From assembly GCF_016902615.1 (NCBI RefSeq), contig NZ_JACJMB010000001.1, positions 62,001 through 126,000 of the forward strand: 64,000 bases of DNA, given 5' to 3'. The notes under the pieces are model-generated. The model was not told the DNA's origin and made no database searches. It saw only the letters and a program-made list of their open reading frames with translations. A program made the position numbers and the translations under genes. Position 1 is the stretch's first letter. The number at the start of each line of letters is the position of its first letter. Shown here one piece after another: positions 41,969 through 44,108 of this stretch. The stretch comes from Collinsella tanakaei. Its GTDB lineage: Bacteria; Actinomycetota; Coriobacteriia; Coriobacteriales; Coriobacteriaceae.

Positions 41969-42214
41969 CTACTCCTCAGGCAGCTTTCCGAAGGCCGCCT
42001 CGTATTCGTCGTCATCCATCCAGTCGATGATATCGCCCGGCTTGCAGTGAAGCGCCTCGCACATGGCGGTGAGCGTCGAGAAGCGAATGCCCTTCAGGCG
42101 CCCCGTCTTGATACGGGAGACGTTGACCGGGGAGATGCCAATCTTCTCGGCAAGCTCGAGCGAAGTCATCTTGCGGTCCGCCATAACGCGGTCGAGTCGC
42201 ATCACAATGGGCAT
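41969..42214 (-). CDS. Small Cro/C1-type HTH regulator
   Basis: DNA-binding protein of 81 aa. The HTH is SLELAEKIGISPVNVSRIKTG, and the following LTAMCEALHCKPGDIIDW matches the short YozG-type XRE subfamily usually paired with DUF2975 membrane proteins. The acidic tail ends EEYEAAFGKLPEE-like. I choose ATG 42214 because AGGTG lies 6 bp upstream; GTG 42223 and ATG 42220 are alternatives. It lies 9 bp after the DUF2975 gene, last in a four-gene set with a radical SAM enzyme. Candidate ligand site: the inverted repeat at 44157-44175. Confidence 0.88.
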   Translation of the reverse strand: MPIVMRLDRVMADRKMTSLELAEKIGISPVNVSRIKTGRLKGIRFSTLTAMCEALHCKPGDIIDWMDDDEYEAAFGKLPEE

Positions 42215-42223
42215 ATGCATCAC

Positions 42224-42769
42224 CTACAGAATGCCGTTTGAGTCTTCTTGCAGGATTCTACCGTACTCGAAAGCACCAGCAAGTGCAAAAAACGTCACAG
42301 AAAGCATAAGAGATGCTAAATCCAATTCGGGCATGACAGCCGTTGCCATCATGGCGGCACCGGGGATCGCCGGCGGGCTGAAGGTGGGCATGAGCAGTCC
42401 GAAGAGCGTGCCCGCAGCGTTCAGGGCGCCGAGCGCGACAAGGCGCGTCGTCTGCGGCACGGAAAAGAACTCCGCGCGCCGCCCGACGGCAAGCACAAAC
42501 GACAGGAAGACGGACAGGGACACGGCGTCGCAGGCGATGTTGAGAATGCTGATGAACATATAGCGCTGCTCCACCGCAGAGGTGCCACCGCCGACCAGCT
42601 CAGGCACGATCGCGGCAAGCACCCAAGCGTTCGCCGCGATGCCGACTCCGAGCATGGCGCACATGATGTAGAGCATACCTACCAACAGGAACCGACGGGA
42701 AGCTTTCGGAGGGTTTCCACCCGACCGGTCATCGCACAGCTGGACGCCGCGCAATGTTTTGGAGACCAT
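42224..42769 (-). CDS. DUF2975-family membrane protein
   Basis: Protein of 181 aa with four hydrophobic helices (about residues 27-52, 70-92, 105-128, 150-170). The layout and the downstream YozG-like HTH gene match the widespread DUF2975/HTH pair whose function is unknown. Start ATG 42769 follows AAAGGAGCGAAGCT. It lies 29 bp after the 25-aa ORF. In this cassette it could be an exporter, a receptor or an immunity factor for the modified peptide; none of these is shown by sequence. Confidence 0.75.
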   Translation of the reverse strand: MVSKTLRGVQLCDDRSGGNPPKASRRFLLVGMLYIMCAMLGVGIAANAWVLAAIVPELVGGGTSAVEQRYMFISILNIACDAVSLSVFLSFVLAVGRRAEFFSVPQTTRLVALGALNAAGTLFGLLMPTFSPPAIPGAAMMATAVMPELDLASLMLSVTFFALAGAFEYGRILQEDSNGIL

Positions 42770-42798: not shown

Positions 42799-42876
42799 TT
42801 ACATGCCGACGCGCACACCGAAAATGATGACGCACTGGGAATCGAGGGATTGATCGTTATCGATGGTGAACAACAT
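42799..42876 (-). CDS. 25-residue ORF, candidate RiPP precursor peptide
   Basis: Encodes a 25-aa peptide beginning MLFTIDNDQSLDSQC and ending in a hydrophobic VIIFGVRVGM. The N-terminal half is acidic and leader-like; the C-terminal half is core-like, with one Cys at position 15. The ribosome site AAAGGAG lies inside the end of the radical SAM gene, and the ATG comes 2 bp after its TAG, giving tight translational coupling. No homology is recognised; a chance ORF is possible, but start signal, position and operon context all argue that it is translated. Confidence 0.6.
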   Translation of the reverse strand: MLFTIDNDQSLDSQCVIIFGVRVGM

Positions 42877-42878
42877 GG

Positions 42879-44108
42879 CTACGCACTCCTTTGAAATCTG
42901 GATGTCATATCGTCGATGGCCGCCTCGAGCGCTCGATTGTAGTAATTGCAGAACGGGTCGCGTCCGGCAAGAGACCCGGACGCCCGGTAAGCGCGTGCTC
43001 GACAACCACCTCCACACAGGTAGCGCTTACCACAGGAAGAGCAGGTATCGATAGCGTCGACCGTTGGAAGATCGAACGCGCGAAGCGCTTCTCGAATGCT
43101 CGCCGCCCCATCGGTGAAGGCGCAGCCGAGCGCATACGGGGAATCGTGCAGCATATGGCAGGGGTAGACGGTGCCGTCTGCAGCAACGCTTACCCCCGCG
43201 CGGCCGGCGCCGCAGCGGGCTCGGGCAGCCAGCTGGTGAGCAGATGCGGCCCATCCCGCATCATCATCAATCGTTGCGCCGCATGACACCATGAGCTCTG
43301 CCAAGCGTGCGCAGGACACCTCATCGCACATAAGCCCTCCGAGACGCGCGGGCGAACCGGAAAGAAGGCTGAAGCCCACAGCAGCACCTAGGCGTTGCCC
43401 CAGCTCGAGATAGGCAGGGATATCCTCAATGTTGCGCGCGTGTATCGTCGGCAAAATCTGGACCGCAAACCCCGCGGCGCGGATGTCCCCCACCGCATGC
43501 ACGAGCCGATCGAACAGCTGGACGCCGCGCACATGGGCCGGCGCATCGGCGGCGGTGCCGTCAAATGAAACCGAGATGACCTCAACAAGCCCCTTGAGAC
43601 CTGCCAAGCGCGCAGGAGTCACCAGTGTGCCGTTCGTGAGCACGCTGATATGGCGGATACCCGCCGTCCTGGCATCTGCCAAGATGGGTGCTAAATCATC
43701 GCGGGCAAACGGCTCTCCGCCGGAGACAACCAATCGCTCGACACCAAGCTCCACAAGCACGCGAGCTGCGTGCGCCAAGTCATCAAGTTCAGGATCGGGC
43801 GCGCAATTCCTGCCAGCATCTTCCGAGTAGCAGCCCGCACACGATAGGTTGCAGCGATTTGTCACATGCAGGTACGCCAGATGAGGACGGCTGGAACGCG
43901 CAGGCGAGCAGAACCCGTGGTCGCGCAGATACTCTACGAGCTGCTCGCATGATACGGGCGTCTCAGACGCGTCGACATCGCGGCGCATCATGGCGCGCAC
44001 CAGGTCCGCACCTTCGTCTGTCAGCCCCACGAGGGCGCCTGTCTCGAGATTACCGATCACCGGGATGCCACCCATATCGAACAGCACCGCATGTTCCGCC
44101 AACCGCAT
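42879..44108 (-). CDS. Radical SAM/SPASM peptide maturase with PqqD-like N-terminus
   Basis: Enzyme of 409 aa. The first 60 residues (VIGNLETGALVGLTDEGADL) resemble PqqD-type RiPP recognition elements, which bind precursor leaders. The radical SAM core has C86-x3-C90-x2-C93 in NRCNLSCAGCYSEDA and the SAM-binding GGEP at 130-133. The C-terminal SPASM domain supplies Cys299, Cys317, Cys356, Cys359, Cys365, Cys369 and Cys387 for auxiliary Fe-S clusters. Such proteins form thioether or C-C crosslinks in short peptides. ATG 44108 has GGGGGCG upstream. It heads an operon with a 25-aa ORF, DUF2975 and HTH genes. An anaerobic sulfatase-maturase or PqqE-like role is less likely here. Confidence 0.88.
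   Translation of the reverse strand: MRLAEHAVLFDMGGIPVIGNLETGALVGLTDEGADLVRAMMRRDVDASETPVSCEQLVEYLRDHGFCSPARSSRPHLAYLHVTNRCNLSCAGCYSEDAGRNCAPDPELDDLAHAARVLVELGVERLVVSGGEPFARDDLAPILADARTAGIRHISVLTNGTLVTPARLAGLKGLVEVISVSFDGTAADAPAHVRGVQLFDRLVHAVGDIRAAGFAVQILPTIHARNIEDIPAYLELGQRLGAAVGFSLLSGSPARLGGLMCDEVSCARLAELMVSCGATIDDDAGWAASAHQLAARARCGAGRAGVSVAADGTVYPCHMLHDSPYALGCAFTDGAASIREALRAFDLPTVDAIDTCSSCGKRYLCGGGCRARAYRASGSLAGRDPFCNYYNRALEAAIDDMTSRFQRSA

Follow-up and report, generated by a model that had tools for sequence, protein, structure and literature searches.

The locus

The window, by which we mean the whole stretch of 64,000 nucleotides of Collinsella tanakaei DNA that was analysed, carries on its reverse strand a 25-codon open reading frame (42799..42876, with its ATG at 42876 and its TAA end at 42799) encoding the peptide MLFTIDNDQSLDSQCVIIFGVRVGM, which we annotate as a precursor peptide on the basis of its sequence, its family, a codon test and a strand control. 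The ATG stands 2 bp past the TAG (42881-42879) of a maturase gene, and a Shine-Dalgarno sequence, AAAGGAG (42886..42892, reverse strand), lies 9 nt before it, within the end of the maturase gene; the 2-bp gap and AAAGGAG had been pointed out in an earlier note on this DNA. The same note saw an acidic first half and a hydrophobic second half in the peptide, and both are there: residues 1-14 include three Asp and neither Lys nor Arg, and the sole Cys, residue 15, is followed by VIIFGVRVGM. This fits the leader/core layout that the note proposed, but the acidic first half is not a rule of the family, as the related peptides of Bacillota are Lys-rich there. That such a gene would normally be missed by gene finders agrees with the databases, since neither the window peptide nor eight relatives matched any NCBIfam model and the window peptide matched none in Pfam.

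The upstream gene (42879..44108, reverse strand) encodes a radical SAM/SPASM maturase of 409 aa, identified by its Pfam domains (PF04055 and PF13186, both above the Pfam cut-off), its invariant Cys residues, an AlphaFold2 model and fold matches. Downstream, 29 bp beyond the peptide and with a Shine-Dalgarno sequence of its own, lies a gene for a DUF2975-kind membrane protein of 181 aa (42224..42769, reverse strand). The window protein itself matched no profile, and the assignment comes from its relatives, 31 of 53 aligned homologues matching PF11188 (DUF2975) at E ≤ 0.05, the best at 6.2e-07. Its structural model has four helices at low confidence (pLDDT 74, built from 9 sequences) and was deemed too weak for a fold search. 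The next gene encodes a Cro/C1-type regulator (HTH_26; PF13443, E 1.1e-20) of 84 aa at 41969..42223 on the reverse strand, although its start is more likely the ATG at 42214, judging by 25 aligned homologues, in which relatives begin with MPIV.

Conservation of the mini-gene

Homologues of the maturase were found in 8 of 43 genomes of the genus (source genome counted), in 67 of 396 sampled genomes of the class, representing 25 of 153 genera, and in 13 of 396 genomes of a phylum sample, all 13 from the same order; named genomes contributed 24 loci, Olsenella, Adlercreutzia and Thermophilibacter among them. After leaving out duplicates (loci with identical first 200 maturase residues) and one distant paralogue (L002, 24% identity), 83 distinct loci remained, 81 of which had at least 150 nt of downstream sequence. 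At 76 of these 81 a mini-gene of the form MLF...C...G adjoins the maturase, a count that includes L086, whose 64-residue peptide exceeded the length limit of 60 and was entered manually. Most mini-genes lie within 20 bp of the maturase stop or overlap it; at seven loci the mini-gene instead precedes the maturase, at a distance of about 1 kb from its start, with the DUF2975 gene, and in some cases the regulator too, between peptide and maturase wherever the intervening genes could be resolved. Elsewhere, L095 has a version with a GTG start, MQFICIPQDIVPCVQLGFGDAPCLIIGA, and L087 has a one-Cys peptide directly after the maturase that is frameshifted into two frames and may be a pseudogene or an assembly error. 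At three of the 81 loci (L024, L055 and L076) no mini-gene was seen near the maturase, and for L055 the peptide was found nowhere.

With a frame of just 25 codons one may consider that it arose by chance in an intergenic spacer. Several observations speak against this. Conserved versions of the mini-gene occur in different families of the order and also in Bacillota. In the 83 loci (579,513 bases) all 84 matches to the family pattern fell on the strand that encodes the maturase and none on the opposite one; control loci, of which 155,500 strand-bases were covered, gave no match, and across both strands of the window the present frame was the only match. Besides the Cys, the pattern required Gly at position +4 or +5 counted from it, so the constancy of these residues is partly built in. 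The mini-gene also appears to diverge in the manner of coding DNA: 70 pairs of loci, picked so that the maturases were similar and the peptides equally long, differed by 0.293, 0.230 and 0.559 at codon positions 1, 2 and 3 within the frame, compared with 0.70-0.71 in every phase of the 24 nt past the peptide stop. The earlier note had named a broken frame in relatives that keep the flanking genes as the result that would count against it; we checked, and the frame is conserved, as are the Cys (which the search pattern itself demanded) and the hydrophobic C-terminal part. We therefore regard the frame as almost certainly a real, translated precursor gene, and leave to chance only a negligible share of the probability.

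A profile built from 41 of the peptides matched 38 of the 396 class genomes, 37 of them among the 67 that have the maturase, and in the 38th (G381) a partial maturase adjoins the peptide. Since many of the matched sequences were themselves in the profile, the informative part of this result is the near-absence of matches in genomes lacking the maturase. At E 0.01 the profile gave no match in the source genome or in 29 further maturase genomes; it is thus specific, but its sensitivity is low, and it is weak for one-Cys members. Among viral contigs the pattern gave 44 matches, none of them a relative; plasmids gave no match to the window maturase and phages none to its Bacillus relative.

Two peptide plans and one branch of the maturase tree

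Among 93 distinct peptides, 92 start with MLF and one with MQF, and all 93 contain a Cys, as the search required. They follow two plans. In the two-Cys plan (64 peptides) a CxxxG motif is followed, after 2-6 residues, by a second CxxxG. In the one-Cys plan (29 peptides, that of the window included) the core Cys is followed by Ile, Val or Phe at +3, a hydrophobic residue at +6, Ile or Val at +8, Gly at +9 and one final residue, which in MLFTIDNDQSLDSQCVIIFGVRVGM corresponds to Cys15, Ile18, Val21, Val23, Gly24 and the last residue, Met25, with a further Gly at position 20. The sorting used the Gly at +4 or +9, whose constancy is hence partly built in, whereas the pattern was free at +3, +6 and +8 and for the single residue after Gly+9. 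Three members of the one-Cys plan (L012, L020, L052) have an additional Cys ahead of the core Cys.

When the plans were mapped onto a tree with 76 maturase rows, made up of 70 linked loci together with L026, L028-L031 and L088, a single branch, with support 100/99, separated the two, and none of 500 shuffles gave an equally low value. Genomes of the same family that have the two-Cys plan (G200, G229 and G262) have maturases from the two-Cys side, which indicates that the plan follows the enzyme rather than the species. This split is the best evidence, drawn as it is from comparing sequences, that the enzyme may act on the peptide. Together with the MLF start, the Cys, the hydrophobic C-terminal part and the adjacency to the maturase, it makes the predicted status of the mini-gene product as a precursor well supported, and we consider it very probable that the window peptide is a substrate of the adjoining maturase. 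The one-Cys/two-Cys split on a single enzyme branch would then amount to a natural experiment in the choice of donor and acceptor.

The maturase and its predicted chemistry

The radical SAM motif CxxxCxxC of the maturase (C86/C90/C93) and seven SPASM Cys residues (C299, C317, C356, C359, C365, C369 and C387) are invariant in 29 aligned maturase sequences. Its AlphaFold2 model has a mean pLDDT of 91, and the closest solved folds are 5WGG (Z 28.6, 313 residues aligned, rmsd 3.3) and 5WHY (Z 28.5, 373 residues aligned over model residues 5-403, rmsd 7.0), the latter ranked first by Foldseek as well (E 5.7e-20). The titles of both entries refer to thioether bond formation in sactipeptide biosynthesis, and the enzyme in them is presumably CteB, of the SCIFF type. 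Further folds were anSME (Z 26.2), ChlB (25.7), SkfB (23.3), SuiB (22.6) and TigE (8VPO, 21.8). A fold shared with 5WGG and 5WHY does not by itself show what the maturase makes. The N-terminal domain (residues ~1-75) looks RRE-like in the model, where residues 7-63 form three strands followed by helices; the alignment with 5WHY, going by its range alone, begins at residue 5, and no PqqD or RRE profile appeared among the NCBIfam and Pfam matches listed for the maturase.

The chemistry that we propose would run as follows. The conserved MLF start would be bound by the RRE-like N-terminal domain; the maturase would cleave SAM reductively, abstract a hydrogen from the hydrophobic core and link Cys15 to a downstream residue, most likely at a Gly alpha-carbon. 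In two-Cys members this would give i+4 CxxxG sactionines in tandem, unnested rings, and in the window peptide the candidate acceptors would be Ile18, Gly20 and Gly24. We think a thioether at Cys15, the residue that the note had named as a possible thioether donor, probable. One may also consider a different radical SAM product, with the Cys put to some other use: a cyclopropylglycine on the Ile/Val before the Gly, an epimerisation or a C-C bond. In every one of the 29 one-Cys peptides the residue before the terminal Gly is indeed Ile or Val, the fold of TigE is close too, and TvgB forms cyclopropylglycine in a TVGG motif (PMC9062424). On the other side stand the Cys present in every one of the 93 peptides and in a Streptococcus relative (found by searches that required it) and the fact that the closest folds are those of thioether formers, and we rate such a product as rather unlikely.

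Relation to known radical SAM peptides

The locus has features expected of a radical SAM RiPP: a maturase with CxxxCxxC and SPASM Cys residues, and beside it a short conserved precursor gene. None of the 25 NCBIfam models among the matches listed for the maturase reached its cut-off. In the mycofactocin (MftC) and PqqE systems, too, SPASM enzymes act with very short precursors, but their peptide sequences and neighbouring genes differ from those at the window locus, and the window maturase scored 82.5 bits with the mycofactocin profile (cut-off 265, so that membership was rejected) and 81 bits with that of PqqE (cut-off 381.35). PapB-type ranthipeptides have a Cx3D/E motif, whose Cys-to-acceptor spacing in the Cx3D form equals that of CxxxG in the two-Cys peptides, although the acceptor here would be a Gly, which has no beta-carbon; the PapB profile stayed below its cut-off in all five relatives scanned.

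StsB, which we take to be the streptosactin enzyme, ranked near the top of the NCBIfam matches listed for the maturase, with 94.5 bits for the window enzyme and at most 131.6 bits for those of five relatives, against a cut-off of 625. Streptosactin (GggA/GggB) likewise pairs a radical SAM/SPASM maturase with a short precursor, and its unnested Cys motifs have a counterpart in the two tandem, unnested Cys-to-Gly motifs of the two-Cys relatives. However, its bridges, Cys25-Ser28 and Cys31-Gly34 (PMC8172795), span i+3, whereas the two-Cys relatives, as known from sequence, have the Gly at i+4 and the window peptide has a single Cys. The same source describes a protease, GggC, and dedicated regulators where the window locus has DUF2975 and HTH genes. 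Membership in the streptosactin class was thus rejected both on the StsB score and on the lack of a two-Cys i+3 layout in the window peptide. SCIFF peptides, with six Cys in 45 residues (PMC7738495), are set apart by the one or two core Cys of the mini-gene peptides, which do not fit that definition.

A search of the open-licence literature for papers containing the peptide strings found none, and the accessible parts of PMC4573289, PMC4289311 and PMC7738495 deal with other Eggerthella peptides (of linocin and nitrile-hydratase-leader type) and with SCIFF-type clusters, the mini-gene peptide being absent from them. The mini-genes most likely constitute a new family of radical SAM RiPP precursors, apparently unnamed in NCBIfam and Pfam. 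Radical SAM RiPPs would thereby gain a precursor family, spread over Coriobacteriia and Bacillota, from mini-genes that standard annotation skips.

Cassettes with DUF2975

The two genes downstream of the window peptide form a pair of membrane protein and Cro/C1 regulator (DUF2975 with HTH_26) of a kind that recurs. We observed the peptide directly ahead of DUF2975 in 80 cassettes, usually followed by the regulator: 70 at maturase loci and 10 elsewhere (L119-L122, L124-L128 and L148), the genomes of the latter all having the maturase. A single genome may hold up to three such extra cassettes (G165). About 5 kb separate one cassette (L121) from the maturase in the same genome, and another (L128), on a contig of 4.3 kb, may or may not be linked to a maturase. 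The arrangement suggests that the maturase may act in trans. For two of the loci that lack an adjacent mini-gene, L076 (G177) and L024 (whose maturase is the same as that of L068, G368), the genome holds a peptide-DUF2975 cassette at another place (L125 and L128, respectively), as one would expect if the maturase can do so. It is conceivable, though we would put it below even odds, that one trans-acting maturase modifies several short paralogous MLF peptides encoded at separate chromosomal sites, each with its own DUF2975 receptor and Cro/C1 regulator. If true, this would mean radical SAM-based signalling in Coriobacteriia, with the one-Cys form as a derived chemistry of one enzyme clade.

The peptide also varies together with DUF2975 in sequence. 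A partial Mantel test, which is lenient on related sequences, gave 0.369 for peptide against DUF2975 given the maturase and 0.235 for peptide against maturase given DUF2975 (0 of 2000 permutations as high in both); for the one-Cys rows the values were 0.163 (16 of 2000 as high) and 0.097 (170 of 2000), respectively. The peptide is tied more tightly to DUF2975 than to the maturase, ten cassettes not standing beside a maturase, and this could be taken to mean that the mini-protein works unmodified, for instance as a micro-protein partner of DUF2975, and that the maturase has another target. We find this improbable, because every genome with a match to the peptide profile has a whole or partial maturase, the plan switches once on the maturase tree, and Bacillota have peptide and maturase without DUF2975.

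DUF2975 is, conversely, found without the peptide. Among 30 DUF2975 loci read in 17 genomes, 17 carry the peptide, and 12 of the 13 that do not are the weakest scorers, among them the loci of the four maturase-less members of the genus in which a match was obtained. DUF2975-HTH pairs occur without a peptide in maturase-less genomes of the same genus, which fits a sensor pair that existed beforehand; the peptide-bearing pairs score higher. A close DUF2975-HTH pair without a detectable peptide was also seen at L157, in a genome that does have the maturase.

Relatives in Bacillota

The clusters of Bacillota have no DUF2975; alongside one to three peptides, for example MLFATKKPATKPNCVSFGVFLCVSYGKNW, they encode an ABC ATPase, an ABC-2 permease and a CPBP/Rce1 protease, and by its composition this gene set looks more like a bacteriocin set. 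Plasmids searched with the Bacillus relative of the maturase gave one match, in Streptococcus salivarius (L171, NZ_CP018188.1, 117762-128631), where a related peptide that keeps the Cys (again found by a search requiring it), MLKFSTKKTKKAGCVSVGALVSVSIGHYIKEVKSTV, is accompanied by a CPBP protease, ABC genes and LytTR/GHKL genes. The maturase of this plasmid locus is truncated and adjoins an IS1595-like element and the resistance gene lnu(C).

These gene sets bring to mind an alternative role for the product, as a narrow-spectrum or self-directed antimicrobial RaS-RiPP that harms close relatives, with DUF2975 as immunity protein and the HTH protein controlling expression. Inhibition of the producer itself is known for streptosactin and for some other RaS-RiPPs of streptococci (PMC8172795 and PMC13361665), and the close association of peptide and DUF2975 is what one would expect of a toxin and its immunity protein. 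Against this, the DUF2975-HTH pairs without peptide where the maturase is absent indicate that DUF2975 is not primarily an immunity factor, and no dedicated protease or exporter recurs in the cassettes of Coriobacteriia. We regard an antimicrobial role, with DUF2975 immunity, as the close alternative to the reading that follows and as less likely than it.

A possible signal

We favour a signal, since the DUF2975-HTH pair exists without the peptide and the unit of peptide and pair is found away from the maturase as well. Because neither a protease nor an exporter was seen in the cassettes of this class, a host protease would remove the short leader and a general exporter would carry the product out of the cell, after which it would act, much like a pheromone, on its own DUF2975-HTH pair of membrane sensor and regulator. 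That the product is sensed through this pair we put forward tentatively, at slightly less than even odds; our literature search found nothing on the function of DUF2975. Overall, we give a probability of roughly 0.6 to the reading in which the frame encodes a RaS-RiPP precursor that probably acquires a thioether bridge at Cys15 and most likely works, as the finished product, through DUF2975. With the cassettes that stand apart from the maturase, this domain of unknown function gains a role that can be put to the test.

Upstream palindromes and neighbouring features

Eleven of the 70 linked loci have a single copy of the palindrome GTAA-N8-TTAC in the 300 nt upstream. Of the gapped 4-base palindromes it ranked first, being present in 11 of 79 upstream regions against a shuffled maximum of 4. 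Ten copies, all at two-Cys loci (L056, L060, L066, L069, L070, L072, L074, L075, L078 and L079), lie 130-157 nt before the maturase start and have GTAAY/RTTAC arms around a varying N6 centre, while the remaining one, at L008, lies 91 nt before it. As the palindrome loci are related to one another, GTAAY-N6-RTTAC is a candidate operator only. The window has an inverted repeat, GTTAA-CCAC-TTAAC (44242-44229, reverse strand), 134 nt before the maturase start, a similar distance but with different spacing, which may be due to chance.

A 466-aa gene upstream had no match in the flanks fetched around ftsE in 9 maturase-less members of the genus. The FtsE frame of the window (42015-40636, reverse strand) has, ahead of its ABC domain, an N-terminal stretch of some 200 residues rich in Pro and Ala, and since FtsE matches in 12 of 12 genomes of the genus start at query residue 1-64, most of this stretch is shared with them.
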